Part shown: positions 1,026 through 47,902 of the stretch, piece after piece
Layout of the letters: the number at the start of each line of letters is the position of its first letter
How positions within the stretch are numbered: position 1 is the first letter of the stretch
Translations under genes and position numbers: made by a program
The notes under the pieces: model-generated
Told to the model about the DNA's origin: nothing
Seen by the model: the letters and a program-made list of their open reading frames with translations, nothing else
Database searches by the model: none
From: a virus
Reading direction: 5' to 3' (one strand)
Length of the DNA: 47,902 nt
Virus record (IMG/VR): IMGVR_UViG_3300019881_000001
Span: 1 to 47,902 of that record

Positions 1026-1360
1026 CCCGGTCTGTGGAGATCCCGGACGCTGCGGTGGAAGCGGGGGTTGAAGCCTGGGCAACTGCGGGAGCGATCGCGT
1101 CAGTTCAGATCCGCGCCGCTCTCGTGGCGGCTAGGCCGTACCTGATGCCGACGGCTGAGCAGATCGCGACGGAGCTTCAGGCACACTACCTCCGGACTGG
1201 GATGGTGGTGGCTAGCGGCGTCACCTGCGAGTGCGGGTACTGGAATGGCATCGAGAGCCCCGGCAAGGATCGTCCTGTCGGCGCGCAGGGGCGGGACGGC
1301 TTGAACTGGCATCGCGCTCAGATCGTGAGCGCTCTGCTGAACGGAGAGACCGATGCCTGA
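1022..1360 (+). CDS. Hypothetical protein (112 aa)
   Basis: Starts at GTG overlapping the previous stop. The N-terminal half is Ala-rich and helical, followed by a segment common in actinophage small proteins (PTAEQIATELQAHY), then a Cys pair (CECG). No known domain is recognised. It overlaps the next gene by 8 bases. Confidence 0.65.
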   Translation: MTRSVEIPDAAVEAGVEAWATAGAIASVQIRAALVAARPYLMPTAEQIATELQAHYLRTGMVVASGVTCECGYWNGIESPGKDRPVGAQGRDGLNWHRAQIVSALLNGETDA

Positions 1361-1703
1361 CACCGAAGTCTACGGCGAGCTGGTCGGCCGGAACGTCATG
1401 GTCGGGAGCGTGCACGCAGTTATCTGCGACTACAACCGCTTCAATCGGCCGCCATTCACCTGGAAGTACGCCGTCGATGGCGAAGAGGGATTCGGGTGGC
1501 GGGAGAACTTCTACCTGCTGCCGACACGGGAGCAGATCGCGCAGGCGCTGCACGAGCACGAACTCGGCGACCCCTGGGACGACGAAGGCTGCAACGACCT
1601 CGGCGACGACGGCGAGTTCGCACCTTCCTGTAAGCAGACCTACCTCGAGCGCGCCGACGCCGTGCTGGCTCTTCTCTCAACCAGTGGGGAGGAGGAGTCG
1701 TGA
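1353..1703 (+). CDS. Hypothetical protein (116 aa)
   Basis: ATG 1353 lies inside the end of the upstream gene. The product is acidic, with an aromatic N-terminal half that looks beta-rich and a PTREQIAQALHEHEL helix like that of its upstream neighbour (PTAEQIATELQAHY), which hints at a shared small domain. Function unknown. It overlaps the next short gene as GTGA. Confidence 0.65.
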   Translation: MPDTEVYGELVGRNVMVGSVHAVICDYNRFNRPPFTWKYAVDGEEGFGWRENFYLLPTREQIAQALHEHELGDPWDDEGCNDLGDDGEFAPSCKQTYLERADAVLALLSTSGEEES

Positions 1704-1819
1704 ACACATGTGAGCAGGAGGACTGCCCGTTCTGGGATGGCCACGGCTGCCCGTGCGAAGTGCTGGATATCAGCGAGGAAGCCCGCGAGCAGGCCAAGCG
1801 TGATCTGGATGCCTACTGA
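1700..1819 (+). CDS. Cys-rich small protein (39 aa)
   Basis: GTG at 1700 overlaps the upstream TGA. The product has four Cys in its first 19 residues (C4, C9, C17, C19 with H15 between), which could bind a metal, followed by an acidic helix. It ends just before a hairpin. No family is recognised; support comes from the GTGA coupling and composition. Confidence 0.55.
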   Translation: MNTCEQEDCPFWDGHGCPCEVLDISEEAREQAKRDLDAY

Positions 1820-1822
1820 TTG

Positions 1823-1865
1823 ACCAGCATCGGACCCATCCCTCCCCCGGGTCGGGTGTGCTGGT
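1823..1865 (+). terminator. Hairpin after the first accessory operon
   Basis: ACCAGCA (1823-1829) pairs with TGCTGGT (1859-1865), and GACCC (1833-1837) with GGGTC (1849-1853) inside. There is no T-run, as is usual in GC-rich hosts. The position between the 39-aa gene and the secreted-protein gene fits a terminator or attenuator. Confidence 0.4.
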
Positions 1866-1896
1866 TGCTCAGGGTGGGTGACCTGAAAGGGAGATC

Positions 1897-2538
1897 GTGA
1901 ACATCAAGTTCCTGAACACCAAGCGGCGTCTCGCGGTAGCGTCCGTCCTCGCGGCCGGTCTGCTCGGCGGCGGTGTCGCTGTGGCGAACGCTGCGGGCGG
2001 TACCGGCTGCGCGACCTTGACCTACCCGTTGTGCCAGCGGTCGGTAGCATCGGGTCAGATCGTCGACAACGCGATCATCAGCAACGACCTGAGCCCGGCA
2101 CTGCGGAATGCGATCAACGCGCCGGACACGAAGGGCGCTGCCGAGCCGCTGTTCGTCAACGCGACACCGAAGGTCATCACGAACATCGGTGGCACGTTCT
2201 CGACCCGCCACACGGAGGTCGGCTCGTTCGTTCTACCGAAGGGGATGTGGCTGGTGAACCTGCAGGCCAAGTTCAACCGTGCGACCGCTTCGCCGGCAGG
2301 TGACCCGGAGGTGCAGCCGATGCTTCAGCTGGTCGGTGACGGCAACTACGTGACGGTGATGGGGTCGTCCATCAGCCCGGGGCTGGACGCGGACCTGACC
2401 GGTTCGGCTGTCAGCCTGGTGACGGTGACCGCGGACACGACGTTCACGGTGAACGCGTTCGGCTACAACTCGGCGCGTGGGTCGCAGGGTTCGGGTGAGA
2501 TCACGGCTCAGGCTGTCGTGGTCGCGGTCCGCGCCTAA
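1897..2538 (+). CDS. Secreted protein with Sec signal peptide
   Basis: The 213-aa product starts at GTG behind AAAGGGAGA. Residues 1-32 form a classical signal peptide: a KFLNTKRR positive patch, a hydrophobic core LAVASVLAAGLLGGGVAVA and an ANA-A cleavage site. The mature part has two Cys near its start (GCATLTYPLC) and a beta-rich, Thr/Val-rich C-terminal domain of about 130 aa resembling a C1q/TNF-like jelly roll, though this is only inferred from the strand pattern. It stands alone between hairpins, as morons expressed from prophages do. A lysogenic-conversion role is plausible but unproven. Confidence 0.75.
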   Translation: MNIKFLNTKRRLAVASVLAAGLLGGGVAVANAAGGTGCATLTYPLCQRSVASGQIVDNAIISNDLSPALRNAINAPDTKGAAEPLFVNATPKVITNIGGTFSTRHTEVGSFVLPKGMWLVNLQAKFNRATASPAGDPEVQPMLQLVGDGNYVTVMGSSISPGLDADLTGSAVSLVTVTADTTFTVNAFGYNSARGSQGSGEITAQAVVVAVRA

Positions 2539-2547
2539 GTAGTACCG

Positions 2548-2581
2548 TGTGGGGTGGCTGCCTGTATGGGGTCACCCCACA
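2548..2581 (+). terminator. Terminator hairpin after the secreted-protein gene
   Basis: TGTGGGGTG (2548-2556) and CACCCCACA (2573-2581) form a perfect 9-bp stem with a 16-base loop, starting 10 bases after the stop codon. A short A-rich stretch follows instead of a T-run. Confidence 0.65.
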
Positions 2582-2591
2582 AACGAAAAGA

Positions 2592-2623
2592 GCACGCCCC
2601 AGCCTGTCGGGGCTGGAGCGTGC
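2592..2623 (+). terminator. Second hairpin, terminator or leader attenuator
   Basis: GCACGC (2592-2597) pairs with GCGTGC (2618-2623) and CCAGCC with GGCTGG inside, across one mismatch. It lies 11 bases behind the first hairpin and 29 bases before ATG 2653. It could be a second terminator or part of the next gene's leader. Confidence 0.5.
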
Positions 2624-2652
2624 GAGTCAGACTGACGAAGGAGTCCGACGAG

Positions 2653-2892
2653 ATGAACGATAGCAAGCAGGCGGCGGCGCGCTACTTCCTGACGCGACCA
2701 TGTACCTGCCCGGACAGCCCCGTCGAGCACGAGGTGTCGAAGGCTGACTACGTGTCCGCCGAGCGGGAGGTTGGGTTCTACAACACTCTCGGGCGGCCGA
2801 AGGAGCCAGCCACCGGGAGCTTCTCCAGCACCAAGTCAGGCGTCACCATCTCTGGCCGGATCTCAAACGAGTCACTCTTGGACCAGCCGTGA
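2653..2892 (+). CDS. Hypothetical protein (79 aa)
   Basis: The chosen ATG follows GAAGGAG at a good distance; a longer frame from 2554 would read through the terminator hairpins and is rejected. It contains CTCPDSPVEHEV, a Cys/His pattern, and a Ser/Thr-rich tail. Function unknown. It couples to the next gene by GTGA. Confidence 0.6.
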   Translation: MNDSKQAAARYFLTRPCTCPDSPVEHEVSKADYVSAEREVGFYNTLGRPKEPATGSFSSTKSGVTISGRISNESLLDQP

Positions 2893-3110
2893 CCGATAGC
2901 AAGACAGTGGTAGAGGATCTGGCAGCCGGCGATTTCGACGGCACCTACCAACTGCGGATGATCATGGCGTACCCGGTCATCTCGGATATGAGCCGTGATG
3001 AGTTGATGTTCGCGGACCCAGACGAGAAGCGTGCCGCGTTTGAGCGCATCCTCGCTGCGAAGAACCTGCGGCGCACTCATGAGATGTATCTCGCTCGGTG
3101 GATTCGATGA
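2889..3110 (+). CDS. Hypothetical protein (73 aa)
   Basis: GTG start overlaps the upstream stop. The protein is small, soluble and acidic, with a helical C-terminal half. No domain is recognised. It overlaps the next gene as ATGA. Confidence 0.6.
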   Translation: MTDSKTVVEDLAAGDFDGTYQLRMIMAYPVISDMSRDELMFADPDEKRAAFERILAAKNLRRTHEMYLARWIR

Positions 3111-3409
3111 CGACTGAGCGGCGGCAGGATCTGGCAGTGTGGCGCAAGATCACCTGCGAAGAGCGGGAGGTGATCGTGCGGGAGCGCGGCTACTACTACC
3201 CGGACAAGTGCACTGGCGGTCTCTGCGTGCATTCTGCTCTGACCGACCACTACGGTCAGTACGGTCTGCCGAAGGTCTTCACCGAGTGGGGTACATACGA
3301 GGATGAGCCTGTTCTGCGGGATGTCCGTCACCCTGCTTTGGACTTGGAGCACAACCCCGGCGCGAAGGACCGGCTGCCTTGCGAGCACTACGCCTGGGGG
3401 TCGCTATGA
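3107..3409 (+). CDS. Hypothetical protein (100 aa)
   Basis: ATG 3107 overlaps the upstream TGA and is preferred over the GTG three codons upstream. The N-terminus (RRQDLAVWRKIT) is similar in position and sequence to the start of the next gene (PAEDLAAWLTRIW), which suggests related helical heads. Three Cys occur in the body. Function unknown. Confidence 0.6.
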   Translation: MTTERRQDLAVWRKITCEEREVIVRERGYYYPDKCTGGLCVHSALTDHYGQYGLPKVFTEWGTYEDEPVLRDVRHPALDLEHNPGAKDRLPCEHYAWGSL

Positions 3410-3813
3410 CCGAGATGCCTGCCGAGGATCTGGCAGCGTGGCTCACCCGGATCTGGGATGAGGAAGAGCGGCTAGCGAGAGAGGTCGCGGACCGCTACCC
3501 CGCACCTTGGGTAGGTGCATTCAAGCAGGTGACCTCAGAGGGCGGCAGCATCGAGGAAGTGGCGAGCACCGAGGCTTCGTGCATCAGCCACCACATCGAG
3601 CGCTACGATCCTGCTTCGGTGCTGGCCCGGATCGCGGCCGACCGGAAGATCCTCGCACTGCACGGATCGATCGACAACATCTACGGACGGCTCGAATGCA
3701 CGAGCTGCGGGATCGCGGGCGAGTTCCCCGTCAGGTGGCCTTGCCCCACGCTGCGACTGCTGGCTTCCCCATACGCTGATTCGCCTGGATACCGCGAGGA
3801 GTGGAAGCCGTGA
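3406..3813 (+). CDS. DUF6221 family protein
   Basis: The 135-aa protein has the features of the DUF6221 family seen in actinobacteria and their phages: a helical start (EDLAAWLTRIWDEEERLA), a central HIERYDPASVLARIAADRKIL segment (helix after an invariant His/Asp-Pro), a CTSCG pair, and the closing signature CPTLRLLASPYADSPGYREEW. The family has no assigned function. It couples to both neighbours by four-base overlaps. Confidence 0.8.
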   Translation: MTEMPAEDLAAWLTRIWDEEERLAREVADRYPAPWVGAFKQVTSEGGSIEEVASTEASCISHHIERYDPASVLARIAADRKILALHGSIDNIYGRLECTSCGIAGEFPVRWPCPTLRLLASPYADSPGYREEWKP

Positions 3814-4034
3814 TCGGCACGGACTGGCGCCCCATCCCCGGATGGGAAGACCGGTATGAGATCACGGCAGCCGGCCAGGTGCGCTCCTTACTGCGCCGGG
3901 TGCGTATCGGAAGAGGGAAGACCCGGCCAGTGAGGGGGCGGTCCTCAGCACGCCTCTGGATAGCCACGGCTATCCGTGTGCGGCCCAGGCTATCTCACGG
4001 ACAAGGGGAGTCGAATGGTGAACGAGTCAGCTAA
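3810..4034 (+). pseudogene. NUMOD4-type homing endonuclease relic, frame broken
   Basis: The N-terminus DWRPIPGWEDRYEITAAGQV followed by RSL is a clear NUMOD4 motif, the DNA-binding head of many phage HNH homing endonucleases. After RPVRGR (about 3940) the frame degenerates. The -1 frame instead reads VLSTPLDSHGYP, matching the usual continuation of such proteins, and ends at TGA 4019-4021 overlapping the next gene. The HNH domain is missing altogether. This looks like a decayed endonuclease with one frameshift; a sequencing indel cannot be excluded. Confidence 0.65.
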
Positions 4035-4278
4035 GCGACCACTGATCGGTATCCCGGTCGAGTCACAGATCGACCACCGCAACGACCCGCGACCCGGTGA
4101 CGACATCGAGCCAGGGTTGCGGGTGAAGTCCAGCGACTACGGCACGGGGACTGTGGTGGCGGTGCTGGGGATCGGGATCCAGATCTACTGGGACACCACG
4201 TTGGTGGGGACTGTGGACTCTCATCTGCTGGTTCATGACCGGTCGTATGTGATGAGACTGGAGCGGTTCTGCCGCTAG
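4015..4278 (+). CDS. Hypothetical protein (87 aa)
   Basis: ATG 4015 (or GTG 4018) follows AGGGGAG. The product has a Pro/Asp-rich start and a compact beta core (GTGTVVAVLGIGIQIYWD) with the G-x-V-V...I-x-W-D spacing of small SH3/KOW-like barrels; this is a resemblance only. It is the last gene of the rightward accessory operon. Confidence 0.6.
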   Translation: MVNESAKRPLIGIPVESQIDHRNDPRPGDDIEPGLRVKSSDYGTGTVVAVLGIGIQIYWDTTLVGTVDSHLLVHDRSYVMRLERFCR

Positions 4279-4313
4279 GTTCCGCATCCCTGGCATGGTC
4301 TCCCCTGAAACGA

Positions 4314-4357
4314 AGCAGCGGCCCCCCACCTCGGCGAGAGGTGAGGGGGCCGCTGTT
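4314..4357. terminator. Strong bidirectional terminator
   Basis: The arm 4314-4332 pairs with 4338-4357 over about 19 bp with a five-base loop (GGCGA), one bulged A (4344) and one G-T wobble near the base. The strand reading right is followed by TTGCTTGG. It separates the rightward accessory operon from the leftward late operon, so it can serve both. Confidence 0.85.
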
Positions 4358-4420
4358 GCTTGGCCAAAAGCAACGTCACATGATGCCGGGTCGGGCTAAT
4401 CATGTACGAGGCTCAGCGTA

Positions 4421-4573
4421 CTACAGGCTGTTGACCAGCTGGCAGAGGAACACCAGCGACAGGGCGCTGAGCGCGAAGCTGGACCATCTGCCGTCCCGGG
4501 TGACACCGCCGACCAGCGCGAGCACCACGGACACGATCAGCAGGATCAGCAGCAGGAGCTCGAAGCCGGTCAT
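4421..4573 (-). CDS. Small membrane protein, holin-like (50 aa)
   Basis: Two hydrophobic segments (about 4-23, LLLLILLIVSVVLALVGG, and 34-47, FALSALSLVFLCQL) are separated by a short polar turn, TRDGRW. Its ATG overlaps the stop of the upstream membrane gene. It sits directly after the endolysin and first holin candidate and is the last late gene. The short two-helix form fits a holin or antiholin. Confidence 0.6.
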   Translation of the reverse strand: MTGFELLLLILLIVSVVLALVGGVTRDGRWSSFALSALSLVFLCQLVNSL

Positions 4574-4737
4574 TGGTCGGCCGGCTGGTTCGGGATCTGG
4601 AACGTCGCGATCGCGGTGACGATCACCAGAGCGAACGCCACGTACACCTTGGCGCCGTCCGGGATGATACCGGTGGTCGCCGACAGTGCGGTCAGGATGG
4701 AGCCGACCAGGGCCGCGTAGGCCTTCGCGTAGCTCAT
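4570..4737 (-). CDS. Putative holin (55 aa)
   Basis: Starts two bases after the endolysin stop. It has an amphipathic N-terminus (MSYAKAYAALVGSILTALSA) and one longer helix (about 31-46, VYVAFALVIVTAIATF), ending in IPNQPADQ. Actinophage holins next to amidase endolysins often have this form, with a central P-D-G turn and a closing P-N. Holin function is inferred from gene order and topology. Confidence 0.6.
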   Translation of the reverse strand: MSYAKAYAALVGSILTALSATTGIIPDGAKVYVAFALVIVTAIATFQIPNQPADQ

Positions 4738-4739
4738 GG

Positions 4740-5603
4740 TCAGACCTTCGCAGCGATGGCGGCAGCAAGCGCCTTGAGGGCGTCGGTCTGATCCTTCATC
4801 GCGGCCAGGACATCAGTGCGATACTTGACCTCCTGCGCGTGGTAGATCCCGCCGGTTCCCTTGTCGCTGTAGAACCTGCTGTTGTACGCGTCGATGCCGT
4901 CTTCTACGTCCTGTGCGGACATGCCGTCCTCCGTGGGTGGTGGTGTAACAACTGGGGGTTTGACCGGGGGGGTCACCGGTGGCTTGGTGGGTCCCGCCTT
5001 GAGCAGCGCGGCCACGGTGGAACGGAACTGGTTCATGGGGCAGTGAGCCGGGTCGGGTTTGCGGAGTGTCCACTCGCGGTGCCCGATGACACTGAGCGCG
5101 GACCAGCCGTGATGGTGGCAGACCGCAGCCGCCCACCTCGTGGCCGCGGCGTACTGCTTCGCGGTCATCGGCTGGCCGCCGTCGTAGCGGACCTCGTTGC
5201 CGTAGAAGTGGGCGTTGCCGTCGGTGTTGTCCGGACCCGCCTTCAGTTCGTGGACGAACCCGGCGTAGTCCTCGTTGACCACGTGGGACAGGACGCCACT
5301 CGAGCCTTCACCTGCGTGGTTGGCGCGGCCCTGCGCGATCAGCCACAGGTCACCGTCCATGTCCGTGGACACGTTGCACAGCGGCGCCGGCAGGTCGCCT
5401 CTACCGTCGACAGCCAGGAACTTCAGGTAGCTGTCGGACTGGATGTCGGAGCCGGTGTGGTGGATGACGATCCCGTTCACCGGGCCGAATGGCCCGTGCT
5501 CCGGGTCCCGGCCTCGGGTCTTCCAGCCGGAGTACTCCCGGTACGGGACGCCCCAGAGCTTCATCGCCGCCAGCGTCTCGGCGGCGGTCATTGGTGTAGC
5601 CAT
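4740..5603 (-). CDS. lysA: Endolysin: N-acetylmuramoyl-L-alanine amidase
   Basis: The 287-aa protein carries an Amidase_2/PGRP-like zinc amidase at about 40-200. Visible ligands and catalytic motifs are HHT (48-50), the central Trp/Asn-His stretch RANHAGEG (93-100) and GHREWT (174-179) followed by a Cys-Pro (188-189). It cleaves the bond between muramic acid and the stem peptide. A Pro/Thr hinge (about 203-222) leads to a C-terminal region (about 223-287) that may bind cell wall. No signal peptide is present, so release depends on the holins next door. No lysin B neighbour was found. Confidence 0.9.
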   Translation of the reverse strand: MATPMTAAETLAAMKLWGVPYREYSGWKTRGRDPEHGPFGPVNGIVIHHTGSDIQSDSYLKFLAVDGRGDLPAPLCNVSTDMDGDLWLIAQGRANHAGEGSSGVLSHVVNEDYAGFVHELKAGPDNTDGNAHFYGNEVRYDGGQPMTAKQYAAATRWAAAVCHHHGWSALSVIGHREWTLRKPDPAHCPMNQFRSTVAALLKAGPTKPPVTPPVKPPVVTPPPTEDGMSAQDVEDGIDAYNSRFYSDKGTGGIYHAQEVKYRTDVLAAMKDQTDALKALAAAIAAKV

Positions 5604-8442: not shown

Positions 8443-10578
8443 TCAGAGTGCCCAGGTGGGGCTGTCGAACAGGCGGACATCGGTCCCTGCGGTGTGGGCT
8501 TTCGCGACGCCGTTGATGGACCGGGTGACCGGGCTGAAGGTCTGCGGGCTTGAGCTGCCGGAAATGCCTCCCACCCGCATACGCTCACCGCCGACGAGGA
8601 TGTCGAAGGGGAACGCGTCACTGTCGGTCGTCCACAGCGAGGTCGCGCCCGTTGACCGCTTGACCGAAAGGGATGTCGTGGTCGAGGTCGCGCTGCTGTT
8701 CAGTTCACTTCCGTCCGTGTCCCAATGGAACGAACCCACGGTGGAACTGGTCGCCCACGTCACGACCGCGTAGGGCTCTGCGGGCATGCAGTTGAAGGTG
8801 ATCGTGTGCACGAACGGGTCGATCGTCTCGGTGTAGCCGATGATGATCAACTTGACGTCGTCGTAGATGAACGCCTTCTGCATCCCGGTGATCGTGAAGC
8901 AGTCGCCGACGTCGGCGGTCTTGATCGCGTTCCTCAGAGTCGAGCTGATCCCAGGCACTTGGAGGTTCACGGTCACCGAAGGCCAACGGGCCTCGTCGAG
9001 AGTTCCGATGTTCGCGACCCATGAGGCTACGTTAAGCAGCTGTCCATCGGTCTCGACGTTCACCGTTAGATCGGTGTCGTAGCGACCCACACCGTCCGGT
9101 GGGTCCAGTGTGGACAGCGGCCCGGTATCGACCGTGTACCGGTCCGAGCCCCCGTCGCGGCGGGTCGCTGTTACATCGTTCTGGGTGTACCGGTCGTCGT
9201 CGACCGGCTCCAGCGGGGGCACAACCTGACCAGCGTTGTAGGCCAAGGTGAACGCTGCCGTCTTGTTGTACAGCGCAGTCCTGGACACATACCGCAAGCC
9301 TGTGCCGTTGCGCTGCTCGTGAAGGATCCCCATGTCGGCGGTTTCACAGTCACGGATCTGCTCGAGGCGGGTCTCAGTGAACTGCGGCCCCATCACCGTT
9401 GACTCAACCGCGGTGCCCACGGTGGTGATCGGGATCCCGCCATCGCCTGCGACTCTGACGATCCGGTCGATCGCGGTCTCACCCGCATACGCGAGCGCTG
9501 CGGCGTAGTAGTCCCCGACGGCCGGGATGTTCGCTGCGGTGTTGTCGGCCCAGAAGGCGAGGTGCGCCATGTTCATCACGGTCTGGTTCGCGAACCGCGA
9601 GTAGTGGAACCGGAAGAACGGGCACTTGGTGATCATCTGGGTCAGCCCCAGGCTGTCGTTGTTGATCAACTGTCCGTCGATGTAGACGAACCACTCGACC
9701 GTCGGGCCCGCAACACTGTGGAGCTCGAACCGGCAGGTATGCAGCAAAGTGTCCTGCAGCGCAGGGATAGCCCCGGTGGCGACAGCAGTGATGATGCCGC
9801 CGTCACCGTCGTTCCAGGACACCTGTGCGGTTCCCGCGTCGGCTGACGTGTTCAGTCGCAGCGTCCAGATCTCATCCAGACCCGGCCAGATCTCCACGTC
9901 CAAAACGCCGAGTCCTGGGGACTGGAACACGAAGTCCAGCGCGACGTTCGTGCCGGCGCCGTCGATGATGCCTTCCATGAACGGCACGTCACCGGTGGCG
10001 TTGAGCTCCATGCCCGTGTCGAGCCACGGAGAACCCAGGTCGGCGCCATAGGTGAACGCGGCTCCGGCGGATCCGCGAAACACCCCGGTCTTGCCGGGGG
10101 CAAGGTTCTGCGCGTAGCCAGTGTCCGTGCCACCGGACAGCGGGTAGTACGCCGCCAGTGTCGGCTGTGCGAGGACATAGTCCTTCAGCGCCGCCGAGAC
10201 CGGCGACTGACCCTGCCCTAGCCGCCGCAGGATGCCGTACGCCTCGACCTCGACGTTGTGGTCGGAGTGCGACACGTCCCACAGCGGCGACAGGTCCGGG
10301 ATCTCACCGTAGAACCGGACGAACGAACCGCTGTCGATGGTGAACCGGACGGGGATGTTGCGCTTGACCTTCCCGAACAGCGGGGACAGCGGGTTCCGGG
10401 GGGAGAACCTGCCATCCCTGTTGTCGAGCGTGAACGAAAAGACCTGCGGAGACGCCTGCGACTGCCGATCGCTTAGGCCGCGGGTGATCGTCACCGTGTC
10501 CCGCTGATATAGGTATTGAGAGATGTCGGTCCATACACCGCTGGCGGTCTGGATCTCCAGCGTCCCTTGTGTCGTCAC
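8443..10578 (-). CDS. Minor tail protein with LamG-like domain
   Basis: The 711-aa product starts at GTG overlapping the tape-measure stop (GTGA). The first 120 residues resemble distal-tail/baseplate hub proteins (VTITRGLSDRQSQASPQ, then TLDNRDGRFSPRNP). A concanavalin/LamG-like jelly roll spans about 140-370, and the C-terminal part returns to tail-hub-like sequence. Position directly after the tape measure marks it as the distal tail or tail-tip protein; the LamG insert probably binds host sugar. Confidence 0.8.
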   Translation of the reverse strand: MTTQGTLEIQTASGVWTDISQYLYQRDTVTITRGLSDRQSQASPQVFSFTLDNRDGRFSPRNPLSPLFGKVKRNIPVRFTIDSGSFVRFYGEIPDLSPLWDVSHSDHNVEVEAYGILRRLGQGQSPVSAALKDYVLAQPTLAAYYPLSGGTDTGYAQNLAPGKTGVFRGSAGAAFTYGADLGSPWLDTGMELNATGDVPFMEGIIDGAGTNVALDFVFQSPGLGVLDVEIWPGLDEIWTLRLNTSADAGTAQVSWNDGDGGIITAVATGAIPALQDTLLHTCRFELHSVAGPTVEWFVYIDGQLINNDSLGLTQMITKCPFFRFHYSRFANQTVMNMAHLAFWADNTAANIPAVGDYYAAALAYAGETAIDRIVRVAGDGGIPITTVGTAVESTVMGPQFTETRLEQIRDCETADMGILHEQRNGTGLRYVSRTALYNKTAAFTLAYNAGQVVPPLEPVDDDRYTQNDVTATRRDGGSDRYTVDTGPLSTLDPPDGVGRYDTDLTVNVETDGQLLNVASWVANIGTLDEARWPSVTVNLQVPGISSTLRNAIKTADVGDCFTITGMQKAFIYDDVKLIIIGYTETIDPFVHTITFNCMPAEPYAVVTWATSSTVGSFHWDTDGSELNSSATSTTTSLSVKRSTGATSLWTTDSDAFPFDILVGGERMRVGGISGSSSPQTFSPVTRSINGVAKAHTAGTDVRLFDSPTWAL

Positions 10579-32879: not shown

Positions 32880-33232
32880 TCGGTCTCCTCGGTGTAGGGG
32901 CCTGCGAGATGCGTGAACACCCGGCTGTTGGGGTTGATGGTTCCGCGCCTATTGGCGAGCGCCCTGCCCCACATTGCGGCGTTCTCAGCCTTGGCCTGCC
33001 AGTCGTCCAAGCCGCAGTGTTCGGCTACCCGCTCAGCCGCCTCAGGGTCGATGCGCCGAAGCGTTTCGAGCGCAACGACGGTGCAGTAGGCGTAGACGTT
33101 CGTTAGTGCCTGGAGCGCGTCGTACCGGGCCTGCTGGGAGTGCTTCTCGTCCGGCTTGAAATTGACGTACCGCGTGGCCTCTGCAAGAAGCTCTGCAGCT
33201 GTTCGCAGAGTGCTTTCGATTTCCTCGCTCAT
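32876..33232 (-). CDS. Hypothetical helical protein (118 aa)
   Basis: Mostly helical, with a tetratricopeptide-like feel (ARYDALQALTNVYAYCTVVA). The C-terminus LAGPYTEETE is nearly the same as that of the neighbouring methyltransferase (LAGPYTDPEDAQ), because both are encoded by the repeated start-associated motif. Function unknown. Confidence 0.65.
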   Translation of the reverse strand: MSEEIESTLRTAAELLAEATRYVNFKPDEKHSQQARYDALQALTNVYAYCTVVALETLRRIDPEAAERVAEHCGLDDWQAKAENAAMWGRALANRRGTINPNSRVFTHLAGPYTEETE

Positions 33233-34377
33233 TGCGCGTCCTCAGGGTCGGTGTAGGGGCCTGCGAGGGTGGGTGCGAAGTCAAGCGCTGCTTGCTGGAG
33301 ACGGGTGCGCAGCGACAGGTCGAGGTAGTCGGCATTGAGGTCGATGCCGACGTACTTGCGGCCGTGGCGCTGGGCAACCATGCCTGTGGTTCCGGAGCCG
33401 CTGAACGGGTCGAGAACGGTCCCGCCCGGCTTGCAGCCCGCGAGGACACACCGCTCGGCCAACTCGGCCGTCATCACCGCGAAGTGCGCCTCAGTGAACG
33501 GTTGAGTTGCGATCGTCCACACGTCCCCCGGGTTTCGGCCCCGGATACCAGAGTCCGTCTGCGCCGATGAAGCCGCACCCGTCGCAGAACGGGCGTCCTC
33601 CGCAGTCCTCGGCATGCCATTGGTCCATGTCTCGTCACTCCTTCTTCCGTAGGTGTTGGGCATTCCGCCAGCAGTCCGATAGGAGCTGCCGATCTTGCCT
33701 TCGCCGCTCAGCTTCCCGCCGAACACGCGCGTGCCGTCGGCCGCTTCTGGGTGGGCGAGGGGCTCGCGGATGGGGTCCAGATCGAACCAGTAGCGGCTGG
33801 ACTTGCTGAACATAAAGACGTGCTCGTAGACGTTGTTGAGCCGGTCGGTGACACTGCTCGGCATCGGGTTCGTCTTCTTCCACACGATCGCGTTGCGCAG
33901 GATCCAGCCGTCATCTTGGAGCGCGAAGGCGACTCGCCAGGGGATGCCGAGCAGGTTCTTCTCTGGCACGCCCGCATCGATGCGACGAGCCTTACCGCTA
34001 CTTTGTCGTTGAACTGAGCGAGCGATTCCTTCTGGACTGATGGCGTGACCACCGCTTGCCGCGCCGAGGGTGGACTTAGCGACGCCACCCAGAGTCCCCT
34101 TGGTTGGGGTGGAGTAGGAGTCGCCGAGGTTCAGCCATAGCGTTCCGTCGTCGGCGAGCACACGGCGTACCTCGGTGAACAGGGTCCGCATTGTCTCGAC
34201 GTACTCGGCGGGTGACGCCTCAAGCCCGTACTGGCCTTCCTCGCCGTAGTCCCGAAGGCCGAAGTAGGGCGGAGATGTGACGCAGCTGTTCACCGAGCCG
34301 TCCGGCAGGGTGCGCAGGACGTCGAGCGCATCGCCGTGATGCAGCGTCAACCCGTCGTCGGCATAGTAGGGGGCCAT
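33229..34377 (-). CDS. DNA methyltransferase, beta class (SPPY)
   Basis: The 382-aa enzyme has motif IV TSPPY at 34-38 and, much later, motif I DPFSGSGTTG at 323-332 followed by G-I-D-L, the order of beta-class N4-cytosine or N6-adenine methyltransferases. SPPY is more often N4-cytosine. The central 150 residues include a specificity region. No restriction enzyme partner lies nearby, so it is an orphan enzyme, probably protecting phage DNA. It lies two genes from the helicase and three from the Mom-like gene. Confidence 0.88.
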   Translation of the reverse strand: MAPYYADDGLTLHHGDALDVLRTLPDGSVNSCVTSPPYFGLRDYGEEGQYGLEASPAEYVETMRTLFTEVRRVLADDGTLWLNLGDSYSTPTKGTLGGVAKSTLGAASGGHAISPEGIARSVQRQSSGKARRIDAGVPEKNLLGIPWRVAFALQDDGWILRNAIVWKKTNPMPSSVTDRLNNVYEHVFMFSKSSRYWFDLDPIREPLAHPEAADGTRVFGGKLSGEGKIGSSYRTAGGMPNTYGRRSDETWTNGMPRTAEDARSATGAASSAQTDSGIRGRNPGDVWTIATQPFTEAHFAVMTAELAERCVLAGCKPGGTVLDPFSGSGTTGMVAQRHGRKYVGIDLNADYLDLSLRTRLQQAALDFAPTLAGPYTDPEDAQ

Positions 34378-34427
34378 TAAGCGTCCTCAGGGTCGGTGTA
34401 GAGGACTGCGTAGTCAGCGGCGGTCAC
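34377..34427 (-). CDS. Tiny coupling ORF (16 aa)
   Basis: GTG 34427 overlaps the stop of the zinc protein gene, and TAA 34377-34379 overlaps the methyltransferase ATG. The peptide ends YTDPEDA, the same end as the methyltransferase, from the start-associated motif. It probably serves to pass ribosomes to the methyltransferase start. Confidence 0.4.
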   Translation of the reverse strand: MTAADYAVLYTDPEDA

Positions 34428-34618
34428 CACGTCACGTCGCAGTCCTGGCAGCCAGTCAGTAAGCCGCCGCCTAGCCGAATCGATGTGGTGTTGATGTGCC
34501 CGCACTTCCCTTGGTGTTCGTTGCACTCACAGCACCTACCGGCACGTCCTCGGTGGCTGTGCCAGATCACCGGATGGCGGCACCCATCGCAGTACTCGAT
34601 GCCTTCTTCGTCGGTCAC
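34424..34618 (-). CDS. Zinc-ribbon protein (64 aa)
   Basis: Cys/His-rich: CDGCRHP at 10-16, CCECN, KCGH and CQDC. Two zinc sites are likely. It overlaps the helicase stop by four bases. Likely DNA- or protein-binding; family not assigned. Confidence 0.65.
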   Translation of the reverse strand: MTDEEGIEYCDGCRHPVIWHSHRGRAGRCCECNEHQGKCGHINTTSIRLGGGLLTGCQDCDVTW

Positions 34619-35826
34619 GCGAACTCCCTCTGTGTGCGTTGCCAGTCCTCATCGCTTGCCTTCGGGTCGATCGCCGTCCACGGCCACAACCCGCCCCGCT
34701 TGATCCGCTGCGGCCAGTTGCGTTCGTCGCGGTCGCCGCGCCACGCGACCATGTCGACGTCGCCGACCTCGTTCCACCGCAGGCCGTAGCCGAACTCGGG
34801 CCAGCCCATGAGCGCCGCCGAGCCTCTAGGGCGCATGTTGCGTTCGTCGCCCTTCGTGGTGGCGTGGCCGGCGTGAGCCTCCAGCACCAACGTGATCCCG
34901 CGCGCCCGGATCGAGTCCAAGGCGCTGATCACCGGAGCGACATGGTCGTCGGTCTGCAAGGCCCTGGGGGCGAGCTTGTACAGCGGCCCGATCACCAGCA
35001 GGTCCGGTTGGGTCGCGTCCAGGACCCGGTTGATCCACGACAGGTCCTTGTCCTTCACGATGTCGATCCCGGCCGGGCGGCAGTCGATGGACACACCGTC
35101 AGACGGGTCCTTGCCCTGCGTCTTGGCCTGCAGCCACATCGCGTGGAGTTGACGCTTCACATGTCGCTCGGTGTTCTCGAGGTCGATGATGTGGGCCCGG
35201 ATCGGCTTCATCGGCTCACGGGAGAACGGATGGATCCCCGCGGCCCCCATGAGTGCCAGCTGCCGCAGGAAGACGCTCTTGCCCAGGCCTTCCTCGCCGG
35301 TGATCACCAGACGGTCCATGCGTTCCAGCAGCTGCGGGATCACCCAGTCGTACGGCTCCTCGGGTTTGCTCATCAGCTCACCGAGGGTCTGGGTCTCGAT
35401 ATCCGGCGCACCCAGGTCACGGATCTTGGTGAGCGCGTTGACGGTCTCCGATACCAGCGACTGCGGGTCGGTCTCGAGGTCCTCGGCGCGTTGCCGCATC
35501 CGGATCGCCTGGTTGATCACCTCACGCCGCCGAGCGAACCCATGGACTGTGGATGCGTACTGCTCCACCGAGTCCGGGATCGCCGGGTTGGTGGCGATGG
35601 TCAGATGCACGCTCATCAGGTGCTTGTTGCCGTTCAGAGCGAGTTGTACCGCCATCGCGTCGGTGGCCTTGCCGTCGGCCTTCAAGCCCCGCAGAACGCT
35701 CCACAGCTTTTGGTGAGCGAGGTTCGCGAAATCGGCGGCCGTCAGGATCCCAGCTGCACGCTCCAACGCCAGAGGGGACTGGTAGCAGCAGGACAGGACG
35801 ATCTGCTCGGCGAGGTCGTCGTTCAT
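34615..35826 (-). CDS. DnaB-type replicative helicase
   Basis: The 403-aa product has a DnaB N-terminal domain (about 1-130: EQIVLSCCYQSPLALERAAG, F-x-N-L-A-H-Q-K-L) and a RecA-like ATPase with Walker A GEEGLGKS (177-184), Walker B after LLVIGPLYKL and a H-x-G-H sensor region. The ATPase is closer to the RepA/AAA_25 type than to classical DnaB. ATG 35826 overlaps the Mom-like stop and has GGGGAAG before it. Confidence 0.85.
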   Translation of the reverse strand: MNDDLAEQIVLSCCYQSPLALERAAGILTAADFANLAHQKLWSVLRGLKADGKATDAMAVQLALNGNKHLMSVHLTIATNPAIPDSVEQYASTVHGFARRREVINQAIRMRQRAEDLETDPQSLVSETVNALTKIRDLGAPDIETQTLGELMSKPEEPYDWVIPQLLERMDRLVITGEEGLGKSVFLRQLALMGAAGIHPFSREPMKPIRAHIIDLENTERHVKRQLHAMWLQAKTQGKDPSDGVSIDCRPAGIDIVKDKDLSWINRVLDATQPDLLVIGPLYKLAPRALQTDDHVAPVISALDSIRARGITLVLEAHAGHATTKGDERNMRPRGSAALMGWPEFGYGLRWNEVGDVDMVAWRGDRDERNWPQRIKRGGLWPWTAIDPKASDEDWQRTQREFA

Positions 35827-36476
35827 GAGACTTCCCCAAGGGGTGGCATGTTCAGGCTGCGGCGAGCCCACTTCAGTTCGACCTCTGTAGCCCGTTGCCG
35901 CCAGTACCGGACCGCAGCTGCGTCATCGATGGCCAGCGCTAGGCGCTGGGAAGGATCAGGTTTCACGCAGAAGACCCACCGGTCCTTTACCTCTTGCCGA
36001 CCGGTGCCCCAGTCACCGCTACCGGTCGGCGGTGGTCGAAGCCGATGCCATGTTGGCGCCCACCGCCAATTGCAGGCTCGGTACAGGGCGCCGGTGTGCC
36101 CATGGGCCGGGTCGCTGTAGGACACCAGTGTCGTCGCCTCCGGGAGGTGCTCGCGAATCAGTCGAAGGCTCCATCGGTGCATGCGGCTTCCGGCGTTCTC
36201 GCCCGCCCCAGCGGTGAGGCACCATCGGGAGAGCTCCAGCCACGAACCGTCATTCGGAAGGCGTCGAGATGTCGGACTGCGCCACATCATCGCGGCGACC
36301 AACTCACCAGCGCGCGAACCGATGACCGTCAGGCGAGCACCGGAGCGCAACGGACCGAGGTAGTGGTGCCTAGCGAGTAGGTAGTTGGCCTCCCAAGGTT
36401 GGCCTAGCCTCCACATCACGCCATCGGCATCGAGAAATCCATAGAGGTCCAGTAGTAGTCCGAGATCGCCGCTCAC
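35823..36476 (-). CDS. mom: Mom-like DNA modification protein (GNAT fold)
   Basis: GTG 36476 overlaps the replication initiator stop; a longer frame is not supported. The 217-aa product has features of the Mu Mom family: an N-terminal H-Y-L-G segment, ELSRW (81-85), a helix with S-R-x-x-x-x-x-S-L-R, then LVSYSDPAHGHTGALYRACN (117-136), matching the Mom core V-S-Y-(A/S)-D-x-x-x-G-H-x-G-x-(I/L)-Y-x-A-x-N-W. Mu Mom converts adenine to N6-carbamoylmethyladenine and blocks many restriction enzymes. Same activity here is inference. Other GNAT transferases are the main alternative. Confidence 0.72.
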   Translation of the reverse strand: MSGDLGLLLDLYGFLDADGVMWRLGQPWEANYLLARHHYLGPLRSGARLTVIGSRAGELVAAMMWRSPTSRRLPNDGSWLELSRWCLTAGAGENAGSRMHRWSLRLIREHLPEATTLVSYSDPAHGHTGALYRACNWRWAPTWHRLRPPPTGSGDWGTGRQEVKDRWVFCVKPDPSQRLALAIDDAAAVRYWRQRATEVELKWARRSLNMPPLGEVS

Positions 36477-37243
36477 TGGAACCTCGCCCGCACGTCGTCC
36501 TTGGCGTACCCGTTCCGCGACGCAGGGGAAGCCGCGTCGGGGGAATCGTCCTGGGCCTTCAGCAACCAGTTGCGCCACGTGGCGCGCCAGTCCGTCTTGA
36601 CGCCCTTCGCGCCGGCCAGAGCAGTCCAGTAGTTGACGAAGCGTTCGGTCTGACGCATCACCCACTGCGGCTGCATGCTGCGTTCGACGGCCCATTCCTT
36701 CATTGCCTCATCGACGGTGAAGGGGTCCGGGATGCGTGTGCCCTTGGTCGTTGCCCGCGGGATTTTGGCAGCCCCGCGAGGGGCAAGAGTGCTTACGTTA
36801 GTAAGTACTTCTTTCTCTGTCTCTGTCTCTGGTACAGGTTTGCTACCCGTTTGCTTGAGCTCTTGCTTAGCACTTGCTTTAGCACTTGCTAGGTTTTTGC
36901 TACGCGCCTTGCCACCCAGCGACCCAGCCTCGCGGCGGCTTTCTCGCAGGTCAGAGACCTCTTGAGCGCTCCGCTGGTGGTCCAGGTAGTCGTGGAAGGA
37001 CGCGTCTCCTGTGTCGGAATCCAGGTAGACGAGACCTTCACGGACGAGCTCGTCCCGAGAGCGCTTGTTACCTTTCCGTGACCACACTTTTTCGGGGATT
37101 CGCCCATCGGTGAGGTACCGGGAGCAGTAGCACCAGCCGGTGACGAGCAGGCGGAATGCGGCGTCAGAGAGCGCGTCGATCTTCGGGTGGTCGGGCATGC
37201 CATCATGCACCCGGATATAGGTCCGCGTGTCCTTCTCCGCCAT
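36473..37243 (-). CDS. Replication initiator-like HTH protein
   Basis: The 256-aa product starts behind a perfect AAGGAGGTGA. Residues 5-95 form a winged-helix domain as in phage replisome organisers (YIRVHDGMPDHPKIDALSDA, then LVREGLVYLDSDTGDASFHD). A Lys/Ser/Ala/Thr/Glu-rich linker precedes a helical C-terminal domain (VNYWTALAGAKGVKTDWRAT). Place before the helicase supports initiator or helicase-loader function. Confidence 0.75.
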   Translation of the reverse strand: MAEKDTRTYIRVHDGMPDHPKIDALSDAAFRLLVTGWCYCSRYLTDGRIPEKVWSRKGNKRSRDELVREGLVYLDSDTGDASFHDYLDHQRSAQEVSDLRESRREAGSLGGKARSKNLASAKASAKQELKQTGSKPVPETETEKEVLTNVSTLAPRGAAKIPRATTKGTRIPDPFTVDEAMKEWAVERSMQPQWVMRQTERFVNYWTALAGAKGVKTDWRATWRNWLLKAQDDSPDAASPASRNGYAKDDVRARFQ

Positions 37244-38764: not shown

Positions 38765-38958
38765 GACTCCCCCAGGAGAACGGACATGGCGTGCGTGGAG
38801 ACTTGTCCAGTTGGCCATTGCACGGTCGCAACAGGCTTGCTTGTGGGCGAACTAAGAGGTGTCACCCATGTGACCTCGCCCGTTCCGAGCTCGGGGTACA
38901 GACGATGGCGGACCCTGTCTGTCTTGCTGAACCTGCCAAGCAGCGCGTACTTGCTCAT
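38761..38958 (-). CDS. Hypothetical beta-rich protein (65 aa)
   Basis: Short strands with G and P turns (GEVTWVTPLSS, PVATVQWPTGQ) suggest a small barrel. Overlaps the SLOG gene stop by four bases. Function unknown. Confidence 0.55.
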   Translation of the reverse strand: MSKYALLGRFSKTDRVRHRLYPELGTGEVTWVTPLSSPTSKPVATVQWPTGQVSTHAMSVLLGES

Positions 38959-39473
38959 CCGAGATCACCCGGCTCACAGTCGTCGGACAGCACGCGCTCG
39001 TACGGTCGCTCCAGCCGGTCCAGTTCGGACTGGAGGTTGTCTGCAGCTACCCCCTCGACCGGTGGCGGCGTGCAACTGATCACCCGAATGCCGGGTGGCT
39101 GTGCCCCCTCGCTGGTTTCGAGGAACCGCCGCACTGGGATGCCAGCCTTCTCAGCGAGGTCAGCGGTGTGCGTGGCACCCTTGCTGCCGTTGCGGATGAA
39201 GGCCAAGCAGAGGTCCGCTCCGAGTGCCACCATCTCCGCATTGCGGCGGTACCCCGCACTGCCCTTGTGCCTCTTCCAGTCGGCCGGGTGGCGCTCGTTG
39301 ATGAACGCGTTCTGCTGAGCCCAGAGATCCGCTACGGCATCCACACCTGTCGGACAGGCTCCGTGCACCACGGTCAGGTGGTTGTTGGGTTCGATCAGCT
39401 TCGCCAGTTCGTTGCGCACCAGATGGATGTCGAGCCAGTCTCGGGAACCGGTGACGAGCACGCGCCTAGCCAT
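38955..39473 (-). CDS. SLOG/DUF2493 family protein (YspA-like)
   Basis: The 172-aa product starts RRVLVTGSRDW and has VVHGACPTGVDAVADLWA, ERHPADWKRH, the AG-x-x-RN-A-E-M motif (SAGYRRNAEMVALGADLCLA) and THTADLAEKAGIPV. This is the DUF2493 branch of the SLOG fold, a Rossmann-like group that binds nucleotide-derived ligands. The last 45 residues are an added linker. Phage copies may sense or handle NAD- or ADP-ribose-type signals; this is inference. Confidence 0.82.
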   Translation of the reverse strand: MARRVLVTGSRDWLDIHLVRNELAKLIEPNNHLTVVHGACPTGVDAVADLWAQQNAFINERHPADWKRHKGSAGYRRNAEMVALGADLCLAFIRNGSKGATHTADLAEKAGIPVRRFLETSEGAQPPGIRVISCTPPPVEGVAADNLQSELDRLERPYERVLSDDCEPGDLG

Positions 39474-46412: not shown

Positions 46413-47864
46413 CTATACCGGTTTCCGGCGCTCCACCTTTACGCGTGATGGATCGAAGCCCGGCCCACGCGTCTCCACCGGTAACACCGTGATCTTGAAC
46501 AAGGCGCTCACGGTCGCAGACCGCACGTCGATGGGTTCCGCATCCCATTGCTCCCGGGTGATGCCGGCCATCCGTGCAAGCATCCGCTTCTCGGTGCCCG
46601 TGGCCAACTGGGCGCGCAGCTGCTCGATCTTCCGGTCGAAGCTCACCATCGACTTCACCAGCCATGCCGGGTCCACATCCGGGTGTTCGGCGAGCTCATC
46701 CAACGTCACTCTGACACCATCCCTGCGGCGCTCGAGACTGACGATCTCCGCGCCCATACCTGGCCGCTCGGACTCGGCGTAGATGGCGTCGATGAACGCA
46801 GGCTCGTTCAGTCTCCGCAGGGTGCGGCCGATGACGTACTCGTCCAGGAGCCGGATGTTGCGGGACACCCGGTTCGGGCAGTCCCGGTTGTTGCAGTAGT
46901 ACTGCCGTGCCTTCGCCGACCGGCCAACGATTGGCTTGGTCCACAGTGGGCCAGCGCACGAACTACACTTCGCATCCCCGCTCAGCAGATGCACGCGCTC
47001 CCGGCCATGGGAGGGGAACAGTTCCGTCTTCCGCTTCAGCAGAGCCTTCAGATCCTCCCAATCCTCGCGGGGGATGATCGGCTCCCACCCGGCGTCGAGC
47101 AACTGCACCGGGGAGTCCCTGGTCTCCTTGTACGCGATGAGTCCGGCGATCCTCGGGGTCAGCATCCACTGCCGGAACCCTGACGGGGTCCACTTGTTCC
47201 CGTTCGTGGTGGTGGACACCGTGTTCAGCCAGGCGATCACGCCGCCCTGCGATTGGCCGGCCAGGAATCTGGTGATGGCCTCGCGTCCAGCAGATGCCTC
47301 CTCCTCGACGATCTGCGACAGATCGAACAGCGGCTTGCCTGTCACCCCGGTCTCACCCGTGGGGATGCCGTAGCCGAACGGACGGTTGCCACCACCGGTC
47401 GGCCTGCCTGCCTTGGCGCGGGCTTCGTTGGCTCGCTTGACGCGACGCGAGGTGTCGGCGGACGCCTTGCATGCCTGTGCGACTTCGATGCGCAGGATGA
47501 ACCGGTCGTCCTCACTGTTCAGGTCCCTCGTGCCTTGCGGTGACGCCATCGGGAAGTGCTTGTCGTCGGCGAGCTTAAGCAGCAGTTCGAGATCCCAGGG
47601 CTGCCGGATGAGCCGGTCGCCGTGGTACACAAGGATCCCGTCCAGCTTGCCGGTCTCGATGTCGGTCAGCATCCTGTCCCATGCGGGGCGTTTGCGGTCC
47701 CGCTTCCACGCGGAGCGGGAGTTGTCCGGGTAGACCTCGCGGATCCTCCAGCCCAGACGCTCAGCTAGCGCGCGGCAATCAGCCTCTTGCCGTTCGACCT
47801 TCTCGAGCGAGCCGTCCGGGGCGTAGCTGAGGCGGCAGTAGATGCCTGCGCTTTGAGGATCCAT
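46413..47864 (-). CDS. int: Large serine integrase
   Basis: The 483-aa product (from ATG 47864) has a serine-recombinase catalytic domain: GIYCRLS with nucleophile S13, ERQEADC, and H-G-D-R-L-I-R. A recombinase domain (about 170-270, RPFGYGIPTG) follows, then a zinc ribbon (CSSC...YYCNNRDCPN) and a coiled coil (SLERRRDGVRVTLDELAEHP and on), the layout of phage integrases such as those of phiC31 and Bxb1. A TTG extension of 11 codons would begin 33 bases upstream, but TATACT six bases before ATG favours the leaderless ATG. It directs attP x attB integration. Confidence 0.95.
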   Translation of the reverse strand: MDPQSAGIYCRLSYAPDGSLEKVERQEADCRALAERLGWRIREVYPDNSRSAWKRDRKRPAWDRMLTDIETGKLDGILVYHGDRLIRQPWDLELLLKLADDKHFPMASPQGTRDLNSEDDRFILRIEVAQACKASADTSRRVKRANEARAKAGRPTGGGNRPFGYGIPTGETGVTGKPLFDLSQIVEEEASAGREAITRFLAGQSQGGVIAWLNTVSTTTNGNKWTPSGFRQWMLTPRIAGLIAYKETRDSPVQLLDAGWEPIIPREDWEDLKALLKRKTELFPSHGRERVHLLSGDAKCSSCAGPLWTKPIVGRSAKARQYYCNNRDCPNRVSRNIRLLDEYVIGRTLRRLNEPAFIDAIYAESERPGMGAEIVSLERRRDGVRVTLDELAEHPDVDPAWLVKSMVSFDRKIEQLRAQLATGTEKRMLARMAGITREQWDAEPIDVRSATVSALFKITVLPVETRGPGFDPSRVKVERRKPV

Positions 47865-47902
47865 GGGTTGAGTATACGTGACCGCTTGACAAGCCAACCG
47901 CG
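47776..47902. repeat. Terminal direct repeat, right copy (circle overlap)
   Basis: Exact copy of bases 1-127. It ends four bases past the centre of the candidate attP, so the attachment site is complete only at the left end. Confidence 0.93.

Follow-up and report, generated by a model that had tools for sequence, protein, structure and literature searches.

In phage Mu, the mom gene gives an anti-restriction phenotype (PMC4461284), and Mom is described as modifying adenine in DNA with an acyl-CoA type donor (PMC7824862). Making Mu Mom too early is toxic, and mom is for that reason expressed late and kept under tight, elaborate regulation (PMC4461284; also PMC12707154). Mom domains also serve phage DNA modification in jumbo phages, where they are fused to endonucleases (PMC7824862), and members of the family are found in Corynebacterium and Enterococcus phages. 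Here, we analysed a gene for a 217-amino-acid (217-aa) Mom-family protein that lies between genes for a replication initiator and a DnaB-type replicative helicase in an entire IMG/VR virus record of 47,902 bases (G+C 65%; hereafter the window). We found that the locus serves as a slot in which DNA-modification genes are exchanged, and that Mom appears to be one item of this exchangeable cargo, with an anti-restriction role. Of the two results, the slot is of more interest than the addition of one more Mom to a known family.

A Mom-family gene overlapping replication genes

The 217-aa protein is a Mom-family member. It matches the Pfam Mom profile with an E-value of 8.7e-15 and a score of 55.3 bits, against a curated cut-off of 27.1, and PHROG 1384, 'Mom-like DNA modification protein', with an E-value of 8.6e-19. 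Mu Mom (PF25680; 8bv8) was the sole PDB match both by phmmer (E 0.003) and with a profile of 24 relatives (5.9e-5). Two viral-contig scans recovered about 30 relatives of the protein, and a genome scan added one in an actinomycete metagenome-assembled genome. The 24 subfamily members that were aligned come nearly all from metagenomic viruses, and every one of them matches Pfam Mom and no other family. They share 34 invariant columns, among them H38-Y39-L-G, E81, R84-W-C, S119-Y-S-D122, G126-H-x-G and Y132, together with a distinctive WxxxPT...P...G..W...K.RW block. In a tree of 31 Mom proteins these members form one clade (98/96), apart from Mu, from Paenibacillus and from a group of Enterococcus, Corynebacterium and Staphylococcus proteins; the Mu branch is long and its exact placement unsure. 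The nearest relative of the window Mom, encoded on contig L018, is 64-66% identical and equally intact.

The predicted structure leads to the same family. With an AlphaFold model of the protein (pLDDT 87.3, pTM 0.84) as query, Foldseek ranked two Mu Mom chains (8bv8) first and second in the PDB (E 1.3e-9 and 3.4e-9), while other GNATs start at 3.9e-6, about three orders of magnitude behind. TM-scores, which alone discriminate weakly, were about 0.55 to Mu Mom and about 0.5 to other GNATs. In a viral structure library, a Salmonella phage protein named Mom ranks second. Residues H38, R84, D122 and Y132 (numbered, like S97, on the window protein) correspond to Mu H58, R111, D149 and Y159; all four are invariant in the subfamily, and H38, R84 and Y132 are shared with Mu and with the remaining phages in the comparison. 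The counterpart of S97 in the alignment is Mu S124, and the PDB title of 8bv8 is that of an inactive S124A mutant. The equivalents of these five residues, in a shorter Mu numbering, have been reported to matter for Mom activity. Thus the window protein shares with Mu Mom the family profile, the predicted GNAT-type fold and the equivalents of all five residues, and differs from it in a block conserved within its clade, 'WAPTWHRLRPPPTG...KDRW', that replaces Mu's C-terminal part. A previous sequence-only reading of this DNA had proposed a Mom core in the protein, and sequence profile, predicted fold and conserved residues agree in bearing this out. The result that this reading had named as refuting it, a structure matching GNAT enzymes with small-molecule substrates, did not appear: Mu Mom came ahead of every other GNAT in the structural search, although Mom itself has the GNAT fold.

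The minus strand carries, in this order, the initiator, the Mom-family gene, the DnaB-type helicase, a 64-aa Cys-rich open reading frame (ORF) and a methyltransferase with an SPPY motif (Table 1); the span from methyltransferase to Mom, 33229-36476, is as the sequence-only reading had given it. The Mom start overlaps the initiator stop by four nucleotides (GTGA), and the Mom stop overlaps the helicase start by four nucleotides (ATGA). Mom and the methyltransferase had been described as flanking the helicase. Mom does adjoin the helicase gene directly; the methyltransferase does not, because the 64-aa ORF lies in between.

Table 1. Coordinates of features in the window and in contigs compared with it
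Sequence	Feature	Coordinates	Strand	Basis or remark
Window	Replication initiator	36473-37243	-	PHROG 3926 replication initiation protein 5.3e-28; upstream slot border
Window	Mom family, putative DNA-modification enzyme, 217 aa, GTG start	35823-36476	-	Pfam PF25680, PHROG 1384, 8bv8; fills the slot
Window	Replicative helicase, DnaB N-terminal domain and AAA_25	34615-35826	-	PF00772 3.2e-11, PF13481 4.8e-18; likely ATG start at 35826 (listed ORF begins at GTG 35871); downstream slot border
Window	64-aa Cys-rich (CxxC) ORF	34424-34618	-	Between helicase and methyltransferase; 4-nucleotide overlap with helicase stop
Window	Beta-class DNA methyltransferase with SPPY, 382 aa	33229-34377	-	N6_N4_Mtase PF01555 3.3e-49
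Window	YAcAr/SLOG-family protein	38955-39473	-	Early region; Pfam 2.5e-20
Window	Serine integrase	46413-47897		
L003	DPPY methyltransferase	8617-9273		Directly follows Mom
L054	C5-cytosine methyltransferase	1472-2629		Upstream of initiator
L055	C5-cytosine methyltransferase	1429-2181		Upstream of initiator
L068	C5-cytosine methyltransferase	1250-1891		Upstream of initiator; weak match, under family cut-off
L069	C5-cytosine methyltransferase	2824-3600		Upstream of initiator
L055	Helicase	4034-5241		In two frames (residues 1-184, 180-403)
L083	D12-class adenine methyltransferase with fused C-terminal glutaredoxin domain	2538-3482		IME-EFm5, polymerase-thioredoxin slot

Exchange of DNA-modification genes at the initiator-helicase slot

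We compared the position between initiator and helicase in nine contigs, including the window, whose helicases are 66-96% identical to the window's. Mom fills the slot in the window only. Four contigs have a PF01555 methyltransferase there (285 aa in L050; 419 aa with SPPY in L051; 216 aa and 501 aa with DPPY in L055 and L068, respectively), and in the other four (L052, L053, L054 and L069) the slot is empty, with the initiator directly joined to the helicase. Every filling in this close group is a DNA-modification gene (5 of 5), and the filled slots all retain short overlaps with both neighbours. Nucleotide identity between the window and L050 is 77-97% up to the initiator stop, falls to ~30% (unrelated) within the slot, and returns to 70-90% where the helicase begins. 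On the slot side, the alignments to L051 and L055 are interrupted at these same positions, and the initiators of these two resemble the window's DNA only near their end. In the more distant L061/L062, the slot holds a C5-cytosine methyltransferase, and initiator and helicase are directly adjacent in Brevibacterium phage Rousseau, Gordonia phage Schmidt, Arthrobacter phage Hum25 and Pseudanabaena phage Pam4. These comparisons show that one DNA-modification gene can stand in for another at this locus. No report of such an exchange slot turned up in the literature, of which our coverage was incomplete, so novelty is not established.

Contig L081, which had come from a DNA pattern scan, was dropped as it does not encode a helicase relative. 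A second variable position lies upstream of the initiator, where four of the contigs have C5-cytosine methyltransferases (Table 1); PF00145 is absent from the window. The two-frame helicase of L055 reflects a frameshift or an assembly error.

A comparable arrangement exists in Enterococcus phages (Alamo and relatives), in which Mom likewise occupies a slot beside replication genes and alternates with adenine methyltransferases, although it belongs to a different clade and the slot is a different one, between the DNA polymerase gene and a thioredoxin-like gene. At this position, phiSHEF11 has an N6_N4 methyltransferase, RG1 a D12-class adenine methyltransferase with the thioredoxin-domain gene as a separate neighbour, IME-EFm5 a D12-class enzyme with a fused glutaredoxin domain, and IME196 an HNH gene, while in AUEF3 it is empty. 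Mom and methyltransferases therefore replace each other in two unrelated phage groups. Since the closest relatives of the window have methyltransferases or nothing in its slot, the window Mom is probably one shield among several that can be swapped for each other to protect against host restriction enzymes.

Proposed function and competing explanations

We estimate a probability of roughly 80% that the window gene encodes a Mom-family adenine-modifying enzyme that serves as anti-restriction cargo in an exchangeable slot. Most likely, the enzyme would put a bulky group on the exocyclic amine of adenines, at short and loosely defined sites in new phage DNA, and this modification is proposed to leave host restriction enzymes unable to cut the phage DNA. 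The gene would have entered the genome of its carrier, a putative temperate actinobacterial siphophage, as exchangeable cargo exactly between the initiator and helicase genes. The GTGA and ATGA overlaps would provide translational coupling, such that Mom would be made together with the replication proteins, presumably early, and would act on newly replicated DNA before packaging.

Several points weigh against this proposal. In Mu, mom belongs to a late, Com-controlled operon and early-expressed Mom is toxic, whereas the window gene is part of a replication operon in which no Com-like regulator is evident. The position of a Mu-type com gene, which encodes a zinc-finger translational activator and overlaps mom from upstream, is here taken by the initiator. 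Either the window Mom is less harmful than Mu's, or its expression is limited in ways that are not visible. The relatives could also transfer another acyl group or modify another base. Moreover, the slot comparison covers few contigs, and these are metagenomic, so the exchange is a strong pattern and not a statistic. Finally, across the whole window, six-base palindromes occur at 0.87 of the expected number and four-base palindromes at 0.96, compared with 1.00 for non-palindromes. Six-base palindromes are thus under-represented, full protection from restriction is therefore not evident, and restriction avoidance seems to persist despite Mom.

We also considered relief of restriction sites as a footprint of protection; the palindrome counts give no sign of it and are not decisive. 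Among the individual six-base palindromes that are rarer than expected in the window are CCCGGG (observed/expected 0.39), AGGCCT (0.46) and AGATCT (0.53). The 64-aa Cys-rich ORF was rejected as a Com equivalent, its BLASTP match to Mu Com being insignificant (E 0.054 over 24 residues). This ORF has no Pfam or PHROG match, and it was not found beside Mom relatives or helicase relatives.

One alternative is that the protein is a GNAT acyltransferase that no longer works on DNA and acts instead on a host or phage protein or on a small molecule, its likeness to Mom reflecting descent only. The fold leaves room for this, with 262 GNAT-type structural matches at E 0.001 or better, and overall the protein shares only 17% of its residues with Mu Mom, which also tells against our proposal. 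We nonetheless consider it unlikely: among the structural matches Mu Mom clearly comes first, the whole subfamily matches Pfam Mom and that family alone, the putative active-site residues are retained down to the equivalent of Mu S124, and the gene sits in a slot otherwise used by DNA methyltransferases.

The sequence-only reading had joined Mom, methyltransferase, helicase and initiator into one replication-linked DNA-modification block, which would make them a single machine with both enzymes acting together at the fork. Gene overlaps do imply that initiator, Mom and helicase are expressed together, but a real block would be kept by Mom relatives, and neither initiator, helicase nor methyltransferase stands beside Mom in the ~30 relatives. 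The block is therefore not supported. A conserved modification operon of any composition was likewise rejected, as the neighbours of these relatives share no gene with the window and none is recurrent apart from Mom; neighbour groups reached 3-4 loci (a C5 methyltransferase, an SF2-type helicase and an uncharacterised protein), and the remaining clusters consist of overlapping reading frames and one trio of near-identical contigs. Leaving the window aside, a PF01555 methyltransferase occurs anywhere in only 2 of 16 long Mom-bearing contigs and is not detectable in the other 14. In L003, the methyltransferase that follows Mom is unrelated to the window's. Conversely, the methyltransferase family occurs without Mom, and helicase relatives have either no Mom or an empty slot. 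We regard a joint machine as very improbable. Slightly less credible still is the view that Mom is a passenger, neutral or decaying, which recombination brought into the junction and which gives no protection: Mom occurs once in this helicase group, but its reading frame is intact, the putative active-site residues are all kept, both coupled junctions are in frame, and the relative on L018 is no less intact.

The methyltransferase, the carrier phage and implications

Beyond the helicase, the SPPY methyltransferase would be a second, independent modification enzyme. It has TSPPY at residue 34 (SPPY at 35) and DPFSGSGTT at residue 323; because motif IV (SPPY) precedes the S-adenosylmethionine-binding motif I (FxGxG), the enzyme is of the beta class, an assignment that agrees with its PF01555 score and with the sequence-only reading. 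With both the Mom-family and the beta-class assignments upheld, the earlier observation of two such enzymes is confirmed. SPPY is common in N4-cytosine enzymes, and solved relatives of the methyltransferase include both adenine and cytosine-N4 enzymes. It is 55-62% identical to enzymes of Rhodococcus, Gordonia and Mycobacterium phages (62% to that of Rhodococcus phage Mbo4), and resembles the Mbo4-type orphan beta-class methyltransferases of these phages. Mycobacterium and Gordonia phages carry the family widely, and no Mom is detectable in any of them. The label 'orphan' also fits the window enzyme as far as the adjoining ORFs are concerned: the two beside it have no Pfam match and three nearby small proteins no PADLOC match, while the other window genes are not all classified and a restriction gene elsewhere in the window is not excluded. 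The enzyme probably adds a second, site-specific layer of modification. Unlike the Mom-endonuclease fusions of jumbo phages (PMC7824862), the window Mom has no fused nuclease domain, and no restriction component was seen.

The window is best read as a temperate phage of an actinobacterium. Its large terminase is closest to Mycobacterium phage terminases (42% identical), and it encodes a serine integrase, consistent with the host group proposed from the sequence alone. A relative of the YAcAr/SLOG-family protein (Table 1) lies ~4.5 kb from Mom in L019. The sequence-only reading had called DNA modification by Mom in an actinobacterial phage notable. The novelty is lower than that, as Corynebacterium phages Stickynote and Darwin, also phages of Actinobacteria, already have an annotated Mom-like gene. 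Their proteins show 34% identity over 41% of the protein and fall outside the window clade in the tree, grouping there with the Moms of Enterococcus and Staphylococcus phages; their genes do not adjoin an initiator and a helicase.

More broadly, it is conceivable, though we hold this tentatively, that tailed phages keep dedicated slots in replication operons at which Mom-type acyl transfer enzymes, N6-adenine or N4-cytosine (m6A/m4C) methyltransferases and C5-cytosine (m5C) methyltransferases swap gene for gene with coupling kept. This Mom subfamily would then be early, unlike the late and repressed mom of Mu, perhaps with another acyl group or a narrower target that makes early expression harmless. 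Early expression of mom is toxic in Mu, and the finding raises the question of how a replication operon can accommodate such a gene. The slot also offers matched sister phages in which the protective effect of each modification can be compared. That Mom takes the place of methyltransferases at one coupled slot, and does so in two unrelated phage groups, is evidence from genomes that non-Mu Moms serve DNA modification. If the window enzyme is active, bulky adenine modification would extend to temperate phages of Actinobacteria, with a bearing on their host range and restriction resistance.

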